From IMG/VR virus record IMGVR_UViG_3300001849_000026, positions 1-27,242 of that record: DNA of 27,242 nt; one strand, 5' to 3'. The position numbers and the translations under genes were made by a program. This document shows, piece by piece, positions 367 through 27,242 of the stretch (positions are counted from its first letter, which is position 1; every line of letters starts with the position of its first letter). This DNA comes from a virus. Under the pieces are notes generated by a model. It had not been told where the DNA came from. It saw only the letters and a list, made by a program, of their open reading frames with translations, and searched no databases.

Positions 367-1047
367 ATGATTCACTATCACGGCACACCAATCACACCCA
401 ATTCTGCGCTGATGACAATGGCAGGCAAGAACTTTTGCATATCATATGTGCGCCCAGACAATCTGAAAGTGTGCCAGAAGATTGGGCAATCTTTGATGTT
501 TGATAATGGCGCCTTTTCTGCCAAGACAAGAGGATTTGAATTTGATCCCTATGGATTCTATGAATGGCTCGATCCAATCCTGGCACATCCCCATTGGGGT
601 GTCGTGCCAGATGTCATTGATGGCACGGTGGAACAGCAACGCAAGATGGTGAAGGATTGGCCTTTCCCAAAAGCATTTGGTGTTCCTGTTTGGCATCTGG
701 GTCTGCCAATCAGCTACCTGCTTGAACTCATTGACGATTGGGGCAAGGCGTGTCTCGGATCGTCTGGTGAGTATTGGCAGGTGGGAAGTTTTAAGTGGTC
801 TGGGCGCATGGATGAGGTATTTAATCAGCTTGCCAAGACTTTCGGACGCATACCTTGGTTGCACGGCATGAGGATGCTGGGCCAGGGTGATGGCCCTTGG
901 CCTTTGGCGAGCGCTGATTCAACCAATGTTGCCCTGAATCATGCAGAACAAATTGAATGTGCGGGGTGCATGGCAAAACGCATTGATTCACAAAACCCGG
1001 CATCAAAGTGGCATCACAAGGCAACTCAAGAAGGACTTTTCGCATGA
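367..1047 (+). CDS. TGT/DpdA-like transglycosylase (putative 7-deazaguanine DNA modification)
   Basis: A 226-residue protein starting at ATG 367, behind AGGGAG (357-362) and one base after the terS stop. It resembles a group of small phage proteins related to tRNA-guanine transglycosylase and the DNA-acting DpdA family. Visible motifs in order: DNGAFSA at residues 46-52, comparable to the DSGGF/DSGAF substrate-site motif of TGT; VVPDVIDG at 79-86; VPVWHLG at 106-112; LGSSGEYWQVG at 130-140; WLHGMRMLG at 164-172; and SADSTNVALNH at 182-192, where D184 is the candidate nucleophile, as in archaeal TGT. DpdA enzymes exchange guanine in DNA for preQ0 or a related 7-deazaguanine. The next gene, overlapping by four bases, encodes a VUT-family transporter of such bases, which strengthens the assignment. 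At 226 residues it is much shorter than canonical TGT. C198 and C201 form one CxxC, but a full TGT zinc site is not visible. It could instead act on tRNA, or be a catalytically divergent TIM-barrel protein. Confidence 0.6.
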   Translation: MIHYHGTPITPNSALMTMAGKNFCISYVRPDNLKVCQKIGQSLMFDNGAFSAKTRGFEFDPYGFYEWLDPILAHPHWGVVPDVIDGTVEQQRKMVKDWPFPKAFGVPVWHLGLPISYLLELIDDWGKACLGSSGEYWQVGSFKWSGRMDEVFNQLAKTFGRIPWLHGMRMLGQGDGPWPLASADSTNVALNHAEQIECAGCMAKRIDSQNPASKWHHKATQEGLFA

Positions 1048-1517
1048 AATTAGCAATTGCAATCTATCTGCTGGCAATGACTGCTGCAAATATCTCTGTA
1101 TCTACATTTGGCCCGTGGATAAGTCCCATCAATTCATTCCTGTTCATTGGGTTGGATTTGACTCTGCGCGATTGGCTTCATGTCAAACTGAAGATGAGTC
1201 AGATGTTATTACTGATTCTTGCAGGGGGTGTAATTACTTACATTCTGAACCCGACTGCTGGGATCATTGCGATTGCTTCCGCATCTGCATTCACGGCATC
1301 TGCCATAATTGATTGGGTGGTGTTCACAAAAATAACCGGATCGTGGCTGAAACGTGCCAATGCCAGCAATGTGGCGGGTGCTGCGGTTGATTCAATAGCG
1401 TTCCCCACCATTGCTTTTGGTGTACTTCTTCCACACATCATTGCGTTGCAGTTTGCGGCAAAGATTGCTGGCGGTGCGGTGTGGGCCGTGCTTATCAACA
1501 AAATAAATAAAAAATGA
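1044..1517 (+). CDS. VUT family (YhhQ-type) queuosine-precursor transporter
   Basis: A 157-residue hydrophobic protein, start ATG 1044 overlapping the previous stop (ATGA), with AGAAGGA about eight bases upstream. It carries the signature of the VUT/YhhQ family (COG1738), whose E. coli member YhhQ imports preQ0: LTLRDWLH at residues 39-46, an acidic residue in a membrane helix (AIIDWVVFTKI, 87-97), and the strongly characteristic stretch at 104-126 with RANASN, GAAVDS and FPTIAFG. Five or six membrane segments are visible at roughly 3-20, 28-40, 51-68, 71-92, 108-130 and 133-152. It is shorter than E. coli YhhQ (about 220 residues) and matches the compact versions of the family. Predicted location is the host inner membrane, feeding 7-deazaguanine bases to the upstream transglycosylase-like enzyme. 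The exact substrate is inferred. Confidence 0.78.
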   Translation: MKLAIAIYLLAMTAANISVSTFGPWISPINSFLFIGLDLTLRDWLHVKLKMSQMLLLILAGGVITYILNPTAGIIAIASASAFTASAIIDWVVFTKITGSWLKRANASNVAGAAVDSIAFPTIAFGVLLPHIIALQFAAKIAGGAVWAVLINKINKK

Positions 1518-3070
1518 AAACCAAAGAAACAAGCACCAAAGAGGTTTCTGCTGGTGGGCTGAGATTTGATTTCAGCGAGTCGCCCGTAATATTTGACTTC
1601 TTCCAAAGCAATGCATTTGTACAAGGCATCATGGGGCCGGTGGGGTCTGGCAAGTCTTATGGGTGTGCTGCCAAGATATTCAAGAAAGCTATTCAGCAGA
1701 AACCCAGCCCCCATGACAATATCCGCTATACCAGGTGGGCGGTGGTCAGAAACAGCTATCCCATGCTGAAGACCACCACCATCAAGACCTGGCTGGATCT
1801 GTTTCCAGAGGCCACCTTTGGCCCCATGCTTTGGACGCCACCCATTACTCACCACATCCGGCTGCCCGCCAGGGACGGGGCTGCAGGCATTGATTGCGAG
1901 GTCATATTCCTGGCCCTTGATCAGCCCAAGGATGTCAGGAAACTGCTTTCGCTGGAACTGACCGGCGCCTGGGTGAATGAGGCCAGGGAATTGCCCAAGG
2001 CAGTGATTGATGGGCTGACTCACCGGGTTGGCCGGTATCCCACAAAGAGGGATGGCGGGGCCACTTGGCACGGGATCTGGATGGACACCAACCCGATGGA
2101 CGATGACCATTGGTGGCATAACATGGCCGAGAAGGAGAAGATGTCTGGCCCGTATGCCTGGAAGTTCTGGAAGCAGCCGGCGGGTATTCTGGAGGTGGCG
2201 TCTGATGATTTGCCGGAAAATCCAGAGGCACAAGACCATGTGTTTGCGTCCGGCAAGTGGTGGAAGATCAATCCCAATGCCGAGAATATCAACAATCTGC
2301 CCACAGGCTATTACCAGCAGATGTTGCTAGGCAAGAATCTGGACTGGATTCGCTGCTATGCCGGAGGTATGTACACCTATGTGCAGGAGGGCAGGCCGGT
2401 ATGGCCAGAGTATGACGATGGCATCATGTCTGCCGAACTGGAAGCAGACCCTACCTTGCCGATTCAGGTTGGTCTGGACTTCGGATTGACACCTGCGGCC
2501 GTCTTTGGCCAGCGGCATCCCTCCGGCCAGTGGCGTGTGCTGCATGAGATCGTCACCTTTGACATGGGGCTGGAGCGATTTGGACAGCAATTGCTCAGTG
2601 AACTGCAGGTCAGGTTTCCAAAGTACGAGTGCCGGATCTGGGGTGACCCTGCAGGCCTGCAGCGTGATGCCATTTATGAGACTACGGCCTTCGAGTACCT
2701 GAAAAGCCTGGGCCTGAAGGCCGAGCCTACGGCCACCAACGACTTCAAGGCCAGGCGGGAAGCGGCTGCAGCCCCCATGAACCGCATGGTCATGGGCAAG
2801 CCAGGCCTGCTGGTACACAAGCAATGCAAATTGCTACGCAAATCACTGTCTGGCGGCTACCATTTCAAGCGGATTGCGGTGGGTGCCGGTCAGGAACGGT
2901 TCAAAGATGCGCCCAGCAAGAACGAACACTCCCATGTGGGCGATGCATTTGGCTATTTGCTCACTGGCGGCGGCGAATATCGCCAGCTTACCCGCGGCAC
3001 CAACCGCACTGCAGGCCAAACCTTCCTGGCAACCACGATTGTGACTGACGAATTCGATGTCTTTGCCTGA
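1514..3070 (+). CDS. terL: Terminase large subunit (packaging ATPase and nuclease)
   Basis: This 518-residue motor protein pumps DNA into the prohead and cuts it. Walker A is GPVGSGKS at residues 41-48. The Walker B/catalytic region is LTGAWVNEARE at 149-159, and a coupling-type motif WMDTNPMDDDHWW follows at 189-201. The C-terminal RNase-H-like nuclease shows three acidic sites: VGLDFGLTP (D322), RIWGDPAG (D378) and HSHVGDAFGYLL (D477). The length is normal for podoviral large terminases. The start at 1514 overlaps the transporter stop by ATGA. The bases before it are A-rich (1499-1513) with no recognisable Shine-Dalgarno, so translation probably depends on ribosomes that finish the transporter gene. 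The 3' end overlaps the next gene by 14 bases. Confidence 0.96.
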   Translation: MKTKETSTKEVSAGGLRFDFSESPVIFDFFQSNAFVQGIMGPVGSGKSYGCAAKIFKKAIQQKPSPHDNIRYTRWAVVRNSYPMLKTTTIKTWLDLFPEATFGPMLWTPPITHHIRLPARDGAAGIDCEVIFLALDQPKDVRKLLSLELTGAWVNEARELPKAVIDGLTHRVGRYPTKRDGGATWHGIWMDTNPMDDDHWWHNMAEKEKMSGPYAWKFWKQPAGILEVASDDLPENPEAQDHVFASGKWWKINPNAENINNLPTGYYQQMLLGKNLDWIRCYAGGMYTYVQEGRPVWPEYDDGIMSAELEADPTLPIQVGLDFGLTPAAVFGQRHPSGQWRVLHEIVTFDMGLERFGQQLLSELQVRFPKYECRIWGDPAGLQRDAIYETTAFEYLKSLGLKAEPTATNDFKARREAAAAPMNRMVMGKPGLLVHKQCKLLRKSLSGGYHFKRIAVGAGQERFKDAPSKNEHSHVGDAFGYLLTGGGEYRQLTRGTNRTAGQTFLATTIVTDEFDVFA

Positions 3071-12172: not shown

Positions 12173-13861
12173 ATGGCAACCCTACCCACATACGAATACG
12201 CTGGCGCACAGTACGCTGATTTGCCAAAGATCAGTGCGGCGCCACAGCAGGCGGCCGCATCCGGCTGGAGTATGCTTGGCCAGCAGTTGGACAAGATGGC
12301 CACATTCTTCTATGGCGAGGCCGCCAGCGAGGCGCAGAAGGCCGGGGCCAAGTTTGCCATTGAGATGCCGCCAACTCCACAGCAGTTGGAGATTGCCAAA
12401 AAAACTGGGCAGATGCCAGTGGTTGAGGGTGCTGGAAGATATTTTCAGGAGTCTTACAACAAGACTTCAGCCCACCTGCTAGGCACAAACATACTGGCTG
12501 ATTTCCAGAATAGGCAGACAGACCGACTCAAGCGCATTGAGTCTGGTGAGCCAGTCAACTTAGACCAACTGAGGCGGGATATTCGGGATGACATTGATGG
12601 CAGCACTAGCGTACTGTCCACAATGGATCCTGCTACTGCAATCAGCTTCCGGGCGCAAATGTCAACTGTTGGCCATGCTGCATATAAGCAGGCACTTACA
12701 TTTGATGAGAAAGCAAGGCAGGCTGCCTATCAGGTAGACATGGCTGCCGGATTGTCCAAGCTGACGCCGGTCATGGAAAATGTGATAGTTGAGTATGCCA
12801 AGTCTGGAGCAATGTCTGACGAACAGATCGAAATGGTCTTGACTGGCATGATTGAGCCGTATACCAATGGTGCATCTATCAGGATGGCTGGCGGCAACAA
12901 GTTTGCTCTTGAGGCCTGGAAGATCAAGGAAGAGGCCAAGAAAAATGCAATCATTGGCAAGTTAACAGACCGTGAATTTGCACCCACTGCAGGCGATGCA
13001 TTCAAGAAACTGATGGCCGGTGATGCCGGTGAGTTGTCTGGCATCTACAAAAGTCTGAGCATTGATGACAAGAAGTCTATCCGCGAGACAATGATTAAGT
13101 CATACGCCGATGAGGAACAGGTGCGGAGAATCACTGAGGCAAATGAAAAGCATGAGAAAGATCAAAAGAAACATAAACTATCTCTTGAGTATTTGACCGC
13201 ACCAGGCAAGAGAAAAAAAGAAATCGTCAATACATTGGTGGAAGATGGATCCATAACCTTGCAGATGGCAGAAGATCTGCTCAAGCCCAAGGATCCACCA
13301 TCCAATCCAAGACTGTTTGGTGATTTGTTCTTCCAGATTCAGCGTGGCCAGATTGCCACCTTTGATCAGCTATTGCCATATGCAAGCAATATGAGCAAAT
13401 CTGAATTTGAGTCATTGGTAAGAGCAACAGCAGATGACCAATCTCGCAAAGCAGTTCAACGCATTGACCGTGAGGCAGGCATCACTAGCGCGTACATAGA
13501 TCCAGGCCCGGTTCGCACAGGAGTCAAAATCAAGTTGACTGACAAGTGGCTTGATGTAATGAAGCGTAAGGTTCAGGATCCAGAGACTGGGGTCATGGCT
13601 TACCCATCTGCTACACAGGCAGTCGAAATTGCCATTAAGGAATACAAAGGCGATGCTGCCGAGCAGAAAAAGGTATCAGGCAGAGAGTCAGCAGAAAAGC
13701 AAATCAAGGACACATTCAATACTGATGACTTTAGACGGCGCGGTATTGCTTTACCAAATATGCCAATTGAGAATATCGATTTCAATCAGATCAAAGGTCT
13801 GAGCAATTCTGAAAAAGATAGGCTCAAAAAAGTGCAAAAACAGTACACGGACAACATATGA
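12173..13861 (+). CDS. Internal virion protein, T7 gp15-like
   Basis: A 562-residue, mostly helical protein without catalytic motifs. It begins with a tyrosine-rich N-terminus (ATLPTYEYAGAQYADLP), then long Ala/Lys/Glu/Gln helices, and has a repeated internal style in which 'DR', 'EE' and 'KK' segments alternate. Its place directly after the gp14-like gene and before two giant virion proteins corresponds to T7 gp15, a part of the inner core that passes into the periplasm during genome entry. From about 13130 onward the sequence becomes richer in A. It overlaps the next gene by four bases (ATGA). Confidence 0.72.
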   Translation: MATLPTYEYAGAQYADLPKISAAPQQAAASGWSMLGQQLDKMATFFYGEAASEAQKAGAKFAIEMPPTPQQLEIAKKTGQMPVVEGAGRYFQESYNKTSAHLLGTNILADFQNRQTDRLKRIESGEPVNLDQLRRDIRDDIDGSTSVLSTMDPATAISFRAQMSTVGHAAYKQALTFDEKARQAAYQVDMAAGLSKLTPVMENVIVEYAKSGAMSDEQIEMVLTGMIEPYTNGASIRMAGGNKFALEAWKIKEEAKKNAIIGKLTDREFAPTAGDAFKKLMAGDAGELSGIYKSLSIDDKKSIRETMIKSYADEEQVRRITEANEKHEKDQKKHKLSLEYLTAPGKRKKEIVNTLVEDGSITLQMAEDLLKPKDPPSNPRLFGDLFFQIQRGQIATFDQLLPYASNMSKSEFESLVRATADDQSRKAVQRIDREAGITSAYIDPGPVRTGVKIKLTDKWLDVMKRKVQDPETGVMAYPSATQAVEIAIKEYKGDAAEQKKVSGRESAEKQIKDTFNTDDFRRRGIALPNMPIENIDFNQIKGLSNSEKDRLKKVQKQYTDNI

Positions 13862-16728
13862 GCATCGAGCGCGAACTACGAGCAAACTGGGATAGCACCT
13901 ACTATCCAGAACCGGAGCCGGACATCCAGCTTGCTGCTGGGCCTAGTGACACGGTGAGCGATGCCGGTGCTGCATTCGGCATCTACCCAGGTATGGGAAA
14001 GCGCACACAGAAAAGCGATATTGGCGAGAAGATGATTCTTGGTGCGCCTGACTTTGCTGCCGGTGCGGCAAGAGGCGCAGTGTCTGCTGGTCTTGGCCTG
14101 GGTGGTGATATACAAAAGTTGGGGCGATTCATTGGCGCCTTGGCCAGCGATAACGAGGGCGGCACATTTGCTGACAAGCTAGGCCGTGCTGCGGCCACCA
14201 TGGAAGACAAGACATTCCTGCCCAGTACTGAGGATGTCAGCAAGCACGGTTACACCATCCCAGGCACAAGCATCACCATCCCGCCCATGGCGCCTGCAGT
14301 CCCTGCTGGAACGAGTGCATTTGGTCTGACACCAGAAGAGCGACAGAAGTCTGCAGAGGCTGGCCAGTTCACCGGGGAATTGGTGGGCGACCCATTTATG
14401 TTGGTCAAAGGCGCATCACTTGCTGGCAAGGGCATTGCCAAAGGCGCAGAGTACCTTGGCCCCAAAGCTGCAGAGATGGCCCAGCAAGGCATTGAGAAAG
14501 CCATGGCGCCGATGATGCCGAGGATTGTGGAGAAGGGGCCATCTATCGATGATGCTGCAACTGTCTATGAGTTGACCCGTGGCGAGCGCAGTGCAGTCAC
14601 CAATGCTGCCGGCAGAAAACCGGCAATGAGACAAGAGGCGACTCAGATAATTCAAGACACCCATTTGAATTATCCTGAGCAAGAGGGGTGGGCGCCAATT
14701 GAGATCAAGGGATTCAACCCGAAAAAGCTGGCTAAGGGTGAACTGGAGCCAGAGGCACAAAAGATACCGTATAACTTCCATTTGCCACCAGAAGGTGTTC
14801 CTGAAGATGCATGGAGATCTACCCTGGCGGCCAGGATATCTGAGGAAGTTACTGCTGTTGTTGATCGAGCAAAGGCCGGTGACCAGGCTGCAATTGATAT
14901 CATCAAGCAAGCTAGTTGGTATAGGTCAATGCGCGACAGACTCCGCGCAGAGTTTGGTGGGATAGGTGATGTATTCGCCGATGTACTTGGAACCACTTCG
15001 GCACAGACCAATGTTGAGCAGAATTTTGCCAATGCGACAGAGATCTTGCGGAGATTTTCCCGCGGCGAATATGATGCCGAAATTCGTGCTTATGAGAATC
15101 GCGTTAAGTCAGGTGAGCCGGTAGATGCCAAGACTTTGACGGCCATGCACAAGGCCGGTGAATTTCCGCTGATCACCAAGGCTGGCGGCGAACTCTTTAA
15201 CACAAACAGCCCGGCATCCATGGGCGCACTGCTGGATATGTTCCGAGCAGTCAAAGCTGGCGATTCTCCGAAGACGCCCAACTTCACCGGCAACCTGATT
15301 GGCCTGACCAATGAGGCCACCATTGATGTGTGGGCAGCCAGGATGTTGCGGAGGGTGGCAGATCTGCCGCGCATACCTCCTATAGCCGAGAAGGGTGTGG
15401 CAGGCAAACATCTGGTTGGATCAACCCTATACGAACCCAAAGTTGGTAGCGAATTTGGATTTGGTCAGGATGTCTTCCGCGAGGCGGCGCAAGAGATCAA
15501 TGCAAGCAATATTGTTAAGCAATATGATCCTACCATTGGAGATCTTGGGCCAGACGATCTGCAAGCTGTCGCCTGGTTTATTGAGAAGGAAAACTGGACA
15601 AAGAATGGCTGGACAAGCAAGGCCGGAGAAGGTGGCAGTTTGGACTATGAGATGTCGCTGGCCGGCGCCGCAGATTCTGAAGCGGTGCGCGGCTTGCGCC
15701 GAGAGATCAATCAGGGATTCAAGATGCCTGGCAGAAGGAAGACAGAAACCGATGAGCAGTACGCTGATCGAGTTGCCACTGCCAAGTCTGCATTTGATGC
15801 GGAACGCACCACCAAGCAGCAGACCCTTGAAGGCATGAAAGCGGATGTTGACCGCTACACATTAGGCGTGTCCGGTGAGAGGCCCAACAAGCCCATGAGC
15901 AACTATGCCCAGGCAGAACTGGCGGCCGAGTTCGATGATGTTGTACGCAATGATCCCTCGGTTGTTGGCTATAACCTGGCGAACACTTACGGGTCATTCA
16001 TGGCCCAGACAGAACGCGCACTGAATGCCGAGTTTGTGGCCAAGCAGAACTTTAATCCGGCTCCACTGGAAAGGCGCCTGGTTGAACAGGGCAAACACTA
16101 TGACCAGGACGCCGTGTTCATCAGCAAGGTGCTGCGCGACTCAAGCAGTCCCAATGCTCGGCCAGGAGTGGAGATCTATTTCAAGCAGAAGATTACCCCA
16201 CAGCAGATGGAGCAAGTCACTGCCAAGCTGCGGGAATACGGGGTGGACGGGTTTACATATGTCACCGATATGCGTTTTGGCGACAAAGTCAATGTCCAGG
16301 CCGGCGCTGGAGGGGCAGATACCGCCGGGCTAAACGGCATCCGATTCCAGTACATCCCGGAATTTGATGATGGCTACAACGCGGCCAACCGGGCGGCAAT
16401 CATGAAACAAAAAGAAGATTTGTTTGATGACATTGTTGAAGATATAATGAAGGAGGGCAATGTGTCTGATGCGCGTGTTATGCATTACGATACAAAAGTC
16501 TTCTTTAGGAGTGACTATGACAAGTACCTTGCAAGAACATCTGGACAGGCTGATCGAGCGCAAGGGGGAGTCCAGCCCTCTGGTGCAAATGCTCCGCAAC
16601 CAGATAGCGGCGCAGGAGTCGGGCAAGACTTTTCAAGATCTGTATCTGACCGGCTCCGTAAAGAAGCAAAAACAAGAAAGTCAAAAGCCGCAGTAAGTGG
16701 CGGTGCGTCAAGCGGGAGTGCTGAATAA
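13858..16728 (+). CDS. Large internal virion protein, 956 residues (ejection protein candidate)
   Basis: A 956-residue protein in the internal-protein cluster. Residues 1-230 are Gly/Ala-rich with amphipathic helices (GAARGAVSAGLGLGG; SLAGKGIAKGAEYLG), reminiscent of membrane-contacting ejection proteins. Residues about 300-600 form a distinct conserved globular domain: YNFHLPPEGVPEDAWR, then SWYRSMRDRLRAEFGGIGD, 'DVLGTTSAQTNVEQNFANA' and GNLIGLTNEATIDVWAARML. It resembles the DUF7178-type domain seen in large phage proteins; its activity is unknown. Residues about 740-830 form another conserved unit (ARPGVEIYFKQKITPQQ; YGVDGFTYVTDMRFGDKVNV). The last 75 residues are low-complexity and overlap a second gene in another frame. 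It is probably a virion core protein or effector delivered with DNA (inference). Confidence 0.72.
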   Translation: MSIERELRANWDSTYYPEPEPDIQLAAGPSDTVSDAGAAFGIYPGMGKRTQKSDIGEKMILGAPDFAAGAARGAVSAGLGLGGDIQKLGRFIGALASDNEGGTFADKLGRAAATMEDKTFLPSTEDVSKHGYTIPGTSITIPPMAPAVPAGTSAFGLTPEERQKSAEAGQFTGELVGDPFMLVKGASLAGKGIAKGAEYLGPKAAEMAQQGIEKAMAPMMPRIVEKGPSIDDAATVYELTRGERSAVTNAAGRKPAMRQEATQIIQDTHLNYPEQEGWAPIEIKGFNPKKLAKGELEPEAQKIPYNFHLPPEGVPEDAWRSTLAARISEEVTAVVDRAKAGDQAAIDIIKQASWYRSMRDRLRAEFGGIGDVFADVLGTTSAQTNVEQNFANATEILRRFSRGEYDAEIRAYENRVKSGEPVDAKTLTAMHKAGEFPLITKAGGELFNTNSPASMGALLDMFRAVKAGDSPKTPNFTGNLIGLTNEATIDVWAARMLRRVADLPRIPPIAEKGVAGKHLVGSTLYEPKVGSEFGFGQDVFREAAQEINASNIVKQYDPTIGDLGPDDLQAVAWFIEKENWTKNGWTSKAGEGGSLDYEMSLAGAADSEAVRGLRREINQGFKMPGRRKTETDEQYADRVATAKSAFDAERTTKQQTLEGMKADVDRYTLGVSGERPNKPMSNYAQAELAAEFDDVVRNDPSVVGYNLANTYGSFMAQTERALNAEFVAKQNFNPAPLERRLVEQGKHYDQDAVFISKVLRDSSSPNARPGVEIYFKQKITPQQMEQVTAKLREYGVDGFTYVTDMRFGDKVNVQAGAGGADTAGLNGIRFQYIPEFDDGYNAANRAAIMKQKEDLFDDIVEDIMKEGNVSDARVMHYDTKVFFRSDYDKYLARTSGQADRAQGGVQPSGANAPQPDSGAGVGQDFSRSVSDRLRKEAKTRKSKAAVSGGASSGSAE
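16517..16696 (+). CDS. Small nested gene inside the 956-residue CDS, different frame
   Basis: A 59-residue protein encoded one frame forward of the surrounding gene. ATG 16517 has a perfect AGGAG (16507-16511) five bases upstream, better than most genes here. The product opens with TSTLQEHLDRLIERKGESSP and continues VQMLRNQIAAQESGKT, then YLTGSVKK: a compact amphipathic helix protein with ordinary codon use for this genome. Over the same bases the host frame reads as Gly/Ser/Ala/Gln low-complexity sequence, as expected when it is constrained by a second gene. Similar short helical proteins occur beside internal virion genes in other phages. The function is unknown. Confidence 0.68.
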   Translation: MTSTLQEHLDRLIERKGESSPLVQMLRNQIAAQESGKTFQDLYLTGSVKKQKQESQKPQ

Positions 16729-21173: not shown

Positions 21174-23572
21174 GCCTATTAGCCAACTCCAACGCTATTG
21201 AGACAGGCGGCTACCAGATTAGCCGTAGTGTGCGTCTGCGTGCAAGCGCAACGCCTTATTTTGACAGAACACCGGCAAGCATTTCTGGAAATAACACTTG
21301 GACATTTTCTTGCTGGGTAAAGCGTGGAAGTGATATAGGTAGCACAAGCACTCAAGAGAGCATTATGGGTGCTGGCGATGGCGGTGGCGCACCAGCTAGA
21401 TATGATGTTTTTGGTTTTTATAACGATACTATTCAATTTGCTACTTTTAACGGTTCAGTAGCATCAATTTATACAACAGCGGTTTATCGTGACCCTAGTG
21501 CATGGTATCACCTAGTCTGTCGTTATGACGACACGCAGTCAACAGCAAGCAATAGAGTTCGCATTTATGTTAATGGGGTTTTGCAAACTTTAAATAGTCC
21601 AACCTATCCAAATCAAAACTACGGAAGCAACTTTAATACTACCTATCTTCAGCGTATTGCCGCTAATACTATTGCAACAAATCGTGGCATTGATGGATAC
21701 CTTGCCGAAGTTATTATGGTGAGTGGACAGTCGTTAGACCCATCTTCATTCGGACAAACTGACGCAAACACAGGTGTCTGGGTAGCTAAGAAATATGTAG
21801 GAAGCTATGGCACGAATGGGTTCTACCTGAACTTCAGCGACAACAGCGCAGCAACATCCACCACCATTGGCAAAGACTATTCGGGCAACGGGAATAACTG
21901 GACACCCAATAACATCAGCGTAACTGCTGGCTCCACCTACGACTCCATGCTAGATGTCCCTGCTGGCAATGGCTATGCAGATGGCGGGAATGGGCGGGGG
22001 AATTACTGTGTGATGAACCCATTAAAGTTGCACTCAGATATGCGACTTACAAATGGAAATTTAGATGTAAGTTGTATAGGTGGTTCAGCCTATTGTGTTT
22101 TTGGTTCTATTGTTATGAATAGTGGCTCTTGGTACGCTGAATACACGATAAATACATCGAGCGGAAATTACCCACAAGCAGGCATTGGAGATTTAGTTAT
22201 AAGTCCAAGTTCAAACCAAGGACTAGGCGATGCAAATGGAACTGCATATCAAAGGGATGGTCGCGTCATTGTTAATGGCTCAACAATAGGAACATTTGCA
22301 ACCTTTACAAATGGTGATGTGATTGGCGTTGCCTACGATGCAACAAACAACAGAATCTATTTTGCCAAGAACAACACTTGGATTAACTCTGGAAATCCGT
22401 CTGGCGGTACAGGTTACTTTAGTCCTGCTTCACCAACACAGGGTTATGTTTTCGGAACTTCAACATATTCTGTTGGATCATGCTCAATCAACCTTGGTCA
22501 ACGCCCCTTCACCTACACCCCACCCACAGGCTTCAAGGCGCTGAACACAACCAACCTGCCTGATCCGACTGTTAAGAAGGGAAGCAGTTATTTTGATATA
22601 AATTTAAGAACAGGAAATGGGTCAACAACCACCGTTACAGGCATACCATTTGCCCCTGATTTGGTTTGGGTGAAAGCCAGAAACAATGTAATGTCACATA
22701 ACCTGTTTGATAGAGTAAGAGGCGCACAAAACGCTTTGTATTCAAATCTGACAGATGCCGAAACAAGTACCACAAACTTAACAGCGTTTACTGGTGATGG
22801 TTATACAGTAGGTAATTCGCTTGTTTTAAACACATACACTTTTGTCGATTGGCTCTGGAAAGCCAACGGCACAGGCGTAAGCAACACCGCAGGCTCCATC
22901 ACCAGCACGGTGTCAGCGAATACAACGAGTGGGTTCTCGATCGCAACAACAACTGGCACAGGCGGTACAGGCACAATTGGTCATGGTCTTGGAGCAGTTC
23001 CTCAATTCATTATGTGTTTCCGTAGAAATACTGCGGCTGACCACTATTGTTACCATCAAGCAATTGGTAATACTAACTTTTTAATATTAAACTCAACTGC
23101 TGCTAGTGCTGCGTCAGCAAATCTGTGGAACAACACAACGCCGACATCTACGGTGTTTTCTGTTGGCAATACCAACAATAATAGCGGCGATACCTATGTG
23201 CATTACATTTTCGCCGCCATCCCCGGCTATTCAGCCTTTGGCAAGTACACGGGCAATGGAAGCACGGATGGGCCATTTGTGTACTGTGGGTTTAGACCGA
23301 AGTGGGTGCTAATAAAACAAACAACTGTTTCTTCAAGGGATTGGATTATTTTAGATACCTCAAGAAATACATACAATGTTGCCGACCTGCAATTACTTCC
23401 CAATACGGCAGAGGCAGAAAGCACAACATTTTATGGTTCAACTGCTTACCTTGATATTTTATCTAATGGTTTTAAGATAAGAAGCGCCTCGGGTCGTAAC
23501 AACGAAAGTACGGCAATTTACATCTACGCCGCCTTCGCCGAAAATCCGACGAAATATGCGAATGCGAGGTGA
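21170..23572 (+). CDS. Receptor-binding adhesin with LamG- and SPRY-like domains, TTG start
   Basis: An 800-residue adhesin. The start is TTG 21170: AGGAG at 21158-21162 lies seven bases upstream, it overlaps the fibre stop as TTGA, and the product then begins SLLANSNAIETGGYQISRSV, a known opening for this protein type. Residues about 20-230 look like a LamG/concanavalin-like domain (NTWTFSCWVKRG, WYHLVCRYDD, RVRIYVNGVLQ, GIDGYLAEVIMVSGQ). Residues about 300-440 look like a SPRY/B30.2-type unit (WYAEYTINTSSG, VIGVAYDATNNRIYFAKNN). The remainder has two tandem related beta domains, each with a PDLVWVKARN or PKWVLIKQTT-type strand and a final WLWKANG or YIYAAFAENP. Likely carbohydrate binding on the host surface. 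Base composition alternates between blocks (see findings). Confidence 0.85.
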   Translation: MSLLANSNAIETGGYQISRSVRLRASATPYFDRTPASISGNNTWTFSCWVKRGSDIGSTSTQESIMGAGDGGGAPARYDVFGFYNDTIQFATFNGSVASIYTTAVYRDPSAWYHLVCRYDDTQSTASNRVRIYVNGVLQTLNSPTYPNQNYGSNFNTTYLQRIAANTIATNRGIDGYLAEVIMVSGQSLDPSSFGQTDANTGVWVAKKYVGSYGTNGFYLNFSDNSAATSTTIGKDYSGNGNNWTPNNISVTAGSTYDSMLDVPAGNGYADGGNGRGNYCVMNPLKLHSDMRLTNGNLDVSCIGGSAYCVFGSIVMNSGSWYAEYTINTSSGNYPQAGIGDLVISPSSNQGLGDANGTAYQRDGRVIVNGSTIGTFATFTNGDVIGVAYDATNNRIYFAKNNTWINSGNPSGGTGYFSPASPTQGYVFGTSTYSVGSCSINLGQRPFTYTPPTGFKALNTTNLPDPTVKKGSSYFDINLRTGNGSTTTVTGIPFAPDLVWVKARNNVMSHNLFDRVRGAQNALYSNLTDAETSTTNLTAFTGDGYTVGNSLVLNTYTFVDWLWKANGTGVSNTAGSITSTVSANTTSGFSIATTTGTGGTGTIGHGLGAVPQFIMCFRRNTAADHYCYHQAIGNTNFLILNSTAASAASANLWNNTTPTSTVFSVGNTNNNSGDTYVHYIFAAIPGYSAFGKYTGNGSTDGPFVYCGFRPKWVLIKQTTVSSRDWIILDTSRNTYNVADLQLLPNTAEAESTTFYGSTAYLDILSNGFKIRSASGRNNESTAIYIYAAFAENPTKYANAR

Positions 23573-23576
23573 TGAT

Positions 23577-24047
23577 ATGGGACGAAAAAAAATCAATGTT
23601 ATTGAGAAGTTTTGGGCAAAAGTTGATAAGCGTTCTGACAATGAATGCTGGCTTTGGCTTGGTGCTTTAGACAAAGATGGATATGGACAGATTTGGGATG
23701 GATACGCTGGGAAGATGAAACGCTCACACAAGGTATCAGCACAAATACATCATGGAGATTCCGATGGACGCATCGTAATGCACTCATGCGACAACCCATC
23801 ATGTTGCAATCCAAACCACCTCAGTTATGGAACAAATGCAGACAATGTTGCCGATAAAATGAAAAAAAGTCGTCAAGCGAAAGGTGAACGACAAGGACAC
23901 AGTAAGCTGACAGAAGCGCAAGTCTCAGATATTCGCAATCGCGCAGCAGAAGGTTATCGGAAACTGTGTGATGAATTTAAACTAGCGCCGTCTACCGTGT
24001 ACAGAATATGGCACAGACAGGCTTGGCAACATATCAACGCCCGTTAA
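23577..24047 (+). CDS. HNH homing endonuclease
   Basis: A 156-residue free-standing endonuclease inserted between the adhesin and a tail gene. ATG 23577 is preferred because AGGTGAT lies just upstream; ATGs at 23556 and 23562 are in frame but overlap the adhesin. The HNH_3-type core is VMHSCDNPSCCNPNHLSYGT (residues 67-86), containing H69, C71, C76, C77 and H81. An N-terminal CWLWLGALDKDGYGQIW strand unit is typical of the family. Residues 111-150 form a helix-turn-helix (LTEAQVSDIRNRAAEG, then LAPSTVYRIWHRQAW) that would give DNA specificity. It is richer in A/T than the structural genes, consistent with mobile origin. Confidence 0.92.
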   Translation: MGRKKINVIEKFWAKVDKRSDNECWLWLGALDKDGYGQIWDGYAGKMKRSHKVSAQIHHGDSDGRIVMHSCDNPSCCNPNHLSYGTNADNVADKMKKSRQAKGERQGHSKLTEAQVSDIRNRAAEGYRKLCDEFKLAPSTVYRIWHRQAWQHINAR

Positions 24048-26266: not shown

Positions 26267-26733
26267 TTGGACTTCCTAACCCATATCTTATTTTAGGCGC
26301 AGTTGTGGCGGCAGTCACGGTCTATTTTGTTGGCCATCACAAGGGATGGGCGCAACGGGATGCTGAGATGCAAGCTGAGATTGCAATCAAGAATGAGGAA
26401 TCTCGGCAGAAGGAACAGAAACTGACCGAGCAAATCAACCAGACCGCAAGCAAACTATCGGAGGCCAACGATGTCATCACTCAAAAACAGTCTGCTCTTG
26501 ATCGCGCTATCAGTGCTGGCCGGGTGCGCCTCCCCGCCTCCAGTTGCGTACAAGCCGCCACAAGTGCCGCCACTGCCAGCGGGAATAACGCCGAAACAAG
26601 CGAATCTGAGCGAGAGACTCTCCGACTTATTGCTCAACTCGCAGCAGAAGGCGACAGGGCAATCAACGAACTCAACGCCTGCATTGCCGCCTACAACCAA
26701 GTAAGGGAGGCTATCAATGGCAGTCAACGCTGA
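26263..26733 (+). CDS. Rz: Rz-like inner-membrane spanin
   Basis: A 156-residue i-spanin. One N-terminal membrane helix (residues 7-24) is followed by a periplasmic coiled coil (residues about 30-85: RQKEQKLTEQINQTASKLSE). A SAGRVRLPAS segment at 84-93, also present in lambda Rz, follows, and then C95 and C140, which could form disulfides. It spans the periplasm with Rz1 and fuses the membranes in the last lysis step. The complete rz1 gene lies inside it in the +1 frame, and the endolysin start overlaps its 3' end. Confidence 0.9.
   Translation: MIGLPNPYLILGAVVAAVTVYFVGHHKGWAQRDAEMQAEIAIKNEESRQKEQKLTEQINQTASKLSEANDVITQKQSALDRAISAGRVRLPASSCVQAATSAATASGNNAETSESERETLRLIAQLAAEGDRAINELNACIAAYNQVREAINGSQR
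26471..26704 (+). CDS. Rz1: Rz1-like outer-membrane spanin lipoprotein, nested in Rz
   Basis: A 77-residue o-spanin wholly inside Rz, one frame forward. The signal peptide ends in the lipobox LAGC with C19 as the lipidated residue. The mature part is proline-rich (ASPPPVAYKPPQVPPLPAG), as is typical for Rz1, followed by a short amphipathic helix (NLSERLSDLLLNSQQ). The nested arrangement is the same as in lambda and supports both calls. It is the clearest evidence for a Gram-negative host. Confidence 0.93.
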   Translation: MSSLKNSLLLIALSVLAGCASPPPVAYKPPQVPPLPAGITPKQANLSERLSDLLLNSQQKATGQSTNSTPALPPTTK

Positions 26734-27242
26734 ACAACTACCAAAGCTACATATTGGTTCACAGTGGGTTGATGCTTTGAATGACACATTCAACCGGTTT
26801 GTCATTGCCACGCCAAAACAACAAGCTGCCTTCATTGGTCAATGTCAGCATGAATGCAATAACTTCAAGACCCTGAAAGAAGGCTTGAGCTATTCTGCTG
26901 AACGCCTGATGAAAGTCTGGCCAAAACGATTCCCAACCATTGAAAGCGCACAGCCCTATGCCCGTAACGAAAAAGCCCTCGCAAATAAGGTTTACGCTAA
27001 CCGCATGGGCAATCGTGACGAGTCTAGCGGTGACGGGGCTCGTTTTTGTGGCCGTGGTCTTATTCAGCTCACTGGCTCTACCGCTTATTACCAAGCTGGC
27101 AAAGCTCTCGGAGTGGATCTTTGGGCTAACCCAAAGATTGTCGCAACGCCTGAATACGCTGCACTCACAGCCGGATGGTTCTGGTCCACCCACAAATGCA
27201 ACGAACTAGCCGAAGCCGGTGACTGGGTGAAGCTCACAAAGG
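26717..27242 (+). CDS. Endolysin, glycoside hydrolase family 19 (3' end cut by window)
   Basis: Starts at ATG 26717 with GGGAGG (26704-26709) seven bases upstream and overlaps the Rz stop. The 175 visible residues are open to the right edge. The GH19 (chitinase/lysozyme-like) fold is clear: QCQHECNNFKTLKEGLSYS with the candidate catalytic pair E46 and E55, YANRMGN at 93-99, and the conserved GDGARFCGRGLIQLTG at 105-120. It cleaves peptidoglycan. There is no signal peptide or SAR helix, so release needs a holin from the upstream small membrane proteins. Only a short C-terminal part should be missing. Confidence 0.95.
   Translation, partial: MAVNAEQLPKLHIGSQWVDALNDTFNRFVIATPKQQAAFIGQCQHECNNFKTLKEGLSYSAERLMKVWPKRFPTIESAQPYARNEKALANKVYANRMGNRDESSGDGARFCGRGLIQLTGSTAYYQAGKALGVDLWANPKIVATPEYAALTAGWFWSTHKCNELAEAGDWVKLTK

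Follow-up and report, generated by a model that had tools for sequence, protein, structure and literature searches.

The left end of the DNA analysed here (the window: an entire IMG/VR virus record of 27,242 bases, linear, without end repeats and probably a fragment) carries a gene for a DpdA-like base-exchange enzyme followed by one for a short membrane protein of the YhhQ/Vut_1 type. The two form a real, recurrent and partner-swapping module, whose pairing is far beyond chance. The best reading of dpdA plus yhhQ, and one that we hold to be fairly probable, is a salvage-fed cassette for DNA hypermodification. An initial annotation made from the sequence alone had proposed such a system; its observation is confirmed, and its interpretation is partly supported.

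All four genes of this region lie on the plus strand in the order terS, dpdA, yhhQ, terL. The small terminase gene (18 to 365), whose start possibly lies upstream of the contig edge, gives a weak match to Pfam Terminase_2 (E 0.004) and shares 57% identity with the terS of Methylophilales phage MEP301. It is followed by dpdA (367 to 1047; 226 predicted amino acids), yhhQ (1044 to 1517; 157 amino acids) and the large terminase gene (1514 to 3070; PHROG_2, 2.5e-19), which is 70.5% identical to its MEP301 counterpart. The position of the two genes between terS and terL, and their four-base overlap, are as originally described: the stop of dpdA and the start of yhhQ share the ATGA at 1044 to 1047, and the start of terL overlaps the stop of yhhQ in the same manner. 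The first of these overlaps suggests that dpdA and yhhQ may be translationally coupled. In MEP301 the gap between terS and terL contains three small ORFs only and the pair is absent; in another viral locus (L015), with a terS 64% identical to that of the window, a DpdA and a YhhQ that are respectively 35% and 55% identical to those of the window stand ahead of terL. The dpdA-yhhQ pair is thus accessory cargo at the terS-terL site.

Elsewhere in the window, a 956-residue ORF in the virion-protein region (13858 to 16728) has weak PHROG matches to families of unknown function only. An HNH-type endonuclease-like ORF, recognized by eye from its histidine- and cysteine-rich core, is found among the tail-region genes (23556 to 24047), and a GH19 chitinase-like endolysin gene (26717 to 27241) is interrupted by the end of the contig.

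On sequence grounds the window enzyme belongs with the DpdA of phage 9g. It matches PHROG_887 ("queuine tRNA-ribosyltransferase") at 3.8e-37, a family that also contains the proven DpdA of 9g and that of MED16; hhalign matches 9g DpdA to a profile built from 57 relatives (E 4.7e-10), and blastp pairs the window and 9g proteins directly at 4e-5. The motifs named in the initial annotation are in place in the translation (DNGAF at 46-50, PDVIDG at 81-86 and SADST at 182-186), and the predicted catalytic pair, Asp46 (DNGAF) and Asp184 (SADST), aligns with Asp72 and Asp215 of 9g. That annotation had made its TGT/DpdA-like assignment depend on retention of this pair across homologues, and the residues are indeed kept in 98% and 100%, respectively, of the 57 sequences. 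His166 is likewise present in 100% of them, and His110 is also conserved. Since His166 aligns with His196 of 9g (in the motif HGF), a residue missing from DpdA2 (PMC6884629), the window enzyme is of the 9g type and not a DpdA2.

Structural comparison was less distinctive. The AlphaFold2 model of the enzyme is weak (pLDDT 63). VIA-align matched it to TIM barrels, among which Cap10 (Z 11.7) and TGTs (Z about 10) scored level with unrelated barrels; Foldseek ranked transaldolases first with non-significant E-values, and no TGT was among the best 50 matches listed. Against 26 bacterial TGTs the DpdA profile reached E 0.2 (hhalign), which is not significant, and only the DNGAF/DSGGF motif was aligned. 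The poor model, the non-distinctive TGT matches and the non-significant TGT profile count against the salvage reading. The protein has no match in Pfam, NCBIfam or PADLOC, and a direct sequence search of the PDB gave no useful match. Its MED16 homologue has been assigned to TGT by HHpred at 99% (PMC8306585). One related viral locus (L194, 3995 to 5092) encodes a DpdA of 365 residues with a C-terminal extension that may reflect fusion to a further domain. Further DpdA subfamilies were reportedly described in a 2023 paper.

The partner carries the motifs LTLRDW, RANASN and GAAVDS, again as first annotated. Pfam Vut_1 (PF02592) matches it at 1.1e-8 (36.1 bits against a gathering score of 27.2), and PHROG_4899, which the PHROGs resource lists as "unknown function," matches at 3e-33. 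The AlphaFold2 model has six helices and a pLDDT of 92.7; among solved structures it most resembles the S-components of ECF transporters (Z 9-11), although scores of this kind are no more than suggestive for helical bundles. A profile of the partner aligns with E. coli YhhQ (COG1738), a transporter of preQ0 and preQ1 (PMC5372724), at 2.2e-6. Membership of the Vut_1 family, six helices and the motif S...D(S/T)..F..(I)AF are common to both proteins, whereas the phage protein is shorter (157 against 221 residues), has lost loops and scores under the curated YhhQ equivalog cut-offs (16.4 against 50.95 bits for TIGR00697 and 18.5 against 252 bits for NF008406). Because of these scores we file it as a Vut_1 relative and not as YhhQ itself, so that the proposed YhhQ-type transporter stands at the level of family and helix number and falls short of the equivalog. 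The partner is predicted to import a 7-deazaguanine base; its transport activity, the direction of transport and the substrate (preQ0, preQ1 or another base) are putative.

Short YhhQ proteins also occur without DpdA, on bacterial chromosomes and in mEp021-like phages, and this counts against the salvage reading. Lone bacterial genes of this kind were seen on contigs of Burkholderiales metagenome-assembled genomes and of Desulfosporosinus (L199, 4941 to 5468; L202, 1538 to 2020; L201 and L203), and DpdA was not found in the genomes of these four loci. The phage gene may have come from cellular genes such as these. In Enterobacteria phage mEp021 (L032, 2980 to 4238) the YhhQ-like gene overlaps a gene for a DNA methyltransferase-like protein (PHROG_757), and related mEp phages have the same YhhQ type. 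A divergent DpdA concealed beside the mEp021 gene was considered and rejected, the neighbour being this methyltransferase-like protein.

The survey of co-occurrence called for by the initial annotation gave a near-obligate association among close relatives. An adjacent dpdA was present at all of the retrieved yhhQ-anchored viral loci (24/24 and 80/80, or 104/104, the larger set being the best 80 of 376 or more yhhQ relatives in viral contigs), and yhhQ was present at 68 of the 78 close dpdA-anchored loci with enough flanking sequence; these sets overlap and consist of the best-scoring relatives of the window genes, and the rates are valid for close kin. When the overlapping viral sets and the GenBank loci were collapsed at <95% identity, 91 distinct pairs remained, 76 with dpdA first and 15 with yhhQ first, and in 50 of the 91 the overlap is exactly four bases. 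DpdA divides mainly into two groups whose mutual identity is roughly 35-40%; YhhQ likewise has two principal groups, though with a soft border, and all four combinations of a DpdA with a YhhQ group occur (38, 12, 19 and 4 pairs). Upstream neighbours of the pairs belong to 60 families and downstream neighbours to 58, so the pair is not confined to one lineage. Within families, dpdA has a median dN/dS of 0.054 and yhhQ one of 0.082; both are real genes under strong purifying selection.

GenBank phages provide a less biased sample. A short YhhQ is present in 21 records, in about 14 of which dpdA is its neighbour, the exceptions being the mEp021-like group. Pair-bearing laboratory phages include Escherichia phage LHE71 (host K-12) and Lg3 (host C1a). 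Most of the 104 GenBank DpdA records gave no short-YhhQ match. In RHph_X2_30, Pam5 and N3_2 a longer DUF165/VUT protein is encoded no more than three genes away from dpdA, and no Vut_1 protein was found in the records whose DpdA has no partner.

It had been suggested that the phage manages without biosynthetic genes of its own, and the searches agree with this for the enzymes sought. No FolE, QueD or QueC was found in the 27 kb window or in the complete GenBank phages that carry the pair. QueC and QueD were likewise not found in 24 large dpdA-bearing viral records (a few of them without yhhQ), in seven yhhQ-bearing GenBank phages or in five further pair-bearing GenBank phages; FolE was not found in the subset of records tested for it, which includes the window. 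The 9g control was positive. At one locus without yhhQ (L176, 3588 to 5262) a DpdA 56% identical to that of the window lies between QueD and QueE, the latter exceeding its curated cut-off; neither QueC nor yhhQ was found on this 7.5 kb contig, and the three-gene arrangement might make carboxy-7-deazaguanine rather than preQ0. In Caulobacter phage DMCA, whose dpdA locus also has no yhhQ, a weak QueD match overlaps dpdA. From these yhhQ-less loci, with dpdA beside Que genes, the transporter and the biosynthesis genes look like alternative partners of DpdA. The L176 arrangement points to a 7-deazaguanine substrate and is the best indirect support for it.

We therefore favour, as fairly probable, the following scheme. 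A free 7-deazaguanine, either preQ0 or a closely related base, would be set loose by other bacteria or by tRNA turnover and be brought into the infected cell by the Vut_1/YhhQ-type protein. There the DpdA-type transglycosylase would put it in the place of selected guanines of the phage DNA. The importer would replace the four-gene preQ0 pathway, or supplement a host supply that is small and scaled to tRNA, and the benefit would be protection of phage DNA from host nucleases; such an anti-restriction role is plausible, though the DNA of MED16, whose enzyme is the one homologue measured, was still cut by most enzymes tested. This salvage reading draws on the DpdA homology with its kept catalytic residues, the Vut_1 assignment, the near-obligate pairing in close relatives and the exchange of partners, and further on the failure to find FolE, QueD and QueC, on the DpdA of L176 between QueD and QueE, and on the MED16 homologue, whose phage has dADG. 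Counted against it are the YhhQ scores under the curated cut-offs, the literature search, which found no nucleoside analysis of any pair-bearing phage, and QueC, which is encoded in all five (5/5) bacterial genomes with this YhhQ type, the one that has the phage pair among them, so that import is not obviously needed. In such hosts import may instead top up a pool scaled to tRNA. More speculatively, widespread phages may depend on a base scavenged from the community, possibly an unexpected one (preQ1, queuine or a carboxy form), with modification and protection dependent on the environment; we regard this extension as doubtful but worth stating.

Among the other explanations the one that survives best, which we nevertheless think unlikely, is that DpdA uses host-made preQ0 and that the YhhQ-like protein, carried along with dpdA, exports or retains the base or acts in superinfection or in the timing of lysis. 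The ubiquity of QueC in the bacterial genomes with this YhhQ type, the existence of DpdA-only phages, one with modified DNA, and the YhhQ scores under the curated cut-offs would all suit such a role. It accounts poorly for a pairing that persists through reversal of gene order and exchange of partners, for the membership of the partner in a known family of Q-precursor transporters, and for the longer members of the YhhQ family that also lie near dpdA. A second explanation, that the pair modifies host or phage tRNA with an imported precursor and so aids translation of phage genes, is quite improbable. TGT and YhhQ are indeed tRNA queuosine genes in bacteria, and both PHROG and RefSeq label the enzyme "queuine tRNA-ribosyltransferase"; the window protein, however, groups with 9g DpdA, the DNA enzyme, the phage of the MED16 homologue has 7-deazaguanine in its DNA, and TGT is already present in bacteria (26/26 genomes). 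Base exchange is thus more likely to take place in DNA than in tRNA. Co-inheritance within one phage lineage without any functional link is very improbable and largely refuted. In its favour, the viral-contig sets are biased to close kin (the best-scoring relatives of the window), and most distant GenBank DpdA phages gave no short-YhhQ match (104 DpdA against 21 YhhQ records). Against it, the neighbours of the pair make up about 60 families on the upstream side and 58 on the downstream side, both gene orders occur, the similar terS neighbourhood of L015 holds a 35%-identical DpdA with a different YhhQ, and the pair is missing from the same gap in MEP301.

If the salvage reading is true, a two-gene unit of import and exchange would explain how small phages obtain modified DNA, and it would assign a function to PHROG_4899. 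It could also explain the trace modification of DpdA-only phages as possibly limited by supply.

Hypermodification of phage DNA with 7-deazaguanines is usually linked to a multi-gene biosynthetic cluster. Phages 9g and CAjan (PMC6884629) have a homologous DpdA in which the Asp pair and the His are likewise present, that of 9g in the same PHROG, although the window enzyme is shorter than 9g DpdA (226 against 317 residues). They make their own preQ0 (folE, queD, queE, queC), whereas the searches of pair-bearing genomes turned up none of FolE, QueD and QueC. Closer in gene content are the DpdA-only phages MED16 (PMC8306585), Salmonella 7-11 and Mycobacterium Orion (PMC6884629), which like the window have dpdA but not the biosynthesis genes. 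The enzyme of MED16 is a homologue with 39% identity; unlike the window, MED16 gave no Vut_1 match. MED16 DNA contains a trace of dADG (0.13% of G) and is cut by most enzymes tested, with no detectable protection (PMC8306585); modification is 0.02% in 7-11 and none in Orion, against 28-32% of G in the own-pathway phages Rosebush and CAjan (PMC6884629). Such low levels in DpdA-only phages, and high levels where the pathway is encoded, fit a limit of supply.

A yhhQ gene is known inside the complete preQ0 clusters of CAjan and EC151 (PMC10002423, PMC8310023) and also in HCTV-1 and HCTV-16 (PMC8651126). These phages resemble the window in having a transporter gene with dpdA or preQ0 genes, and differ in that their yhhQ supplements a complete pathway, whereas in the window it is the sole supply gene found. 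That DpdA-only phages rely on a precursor made by the host or taken up from outside was already proposed in 2019, in a paper that also noted YhhQ in some phages and said that it correlates with no phage group (PMC6884629); the pairing described above revises that remark. Outside two likely sources, the papers on Nanopore mapping of CAjan and a 2024 MMBR review, the literature search found no description of the stripped pair as a unit. The initial annotation had called the system possibly under-described, and this is borne out in part: uptake of the precursor is not a wholly new idea, and yhhQ by dpdA was known from CAjan and EC151, but the two genes as a stripped, recurrent, partner-swapping unit appear to be new.
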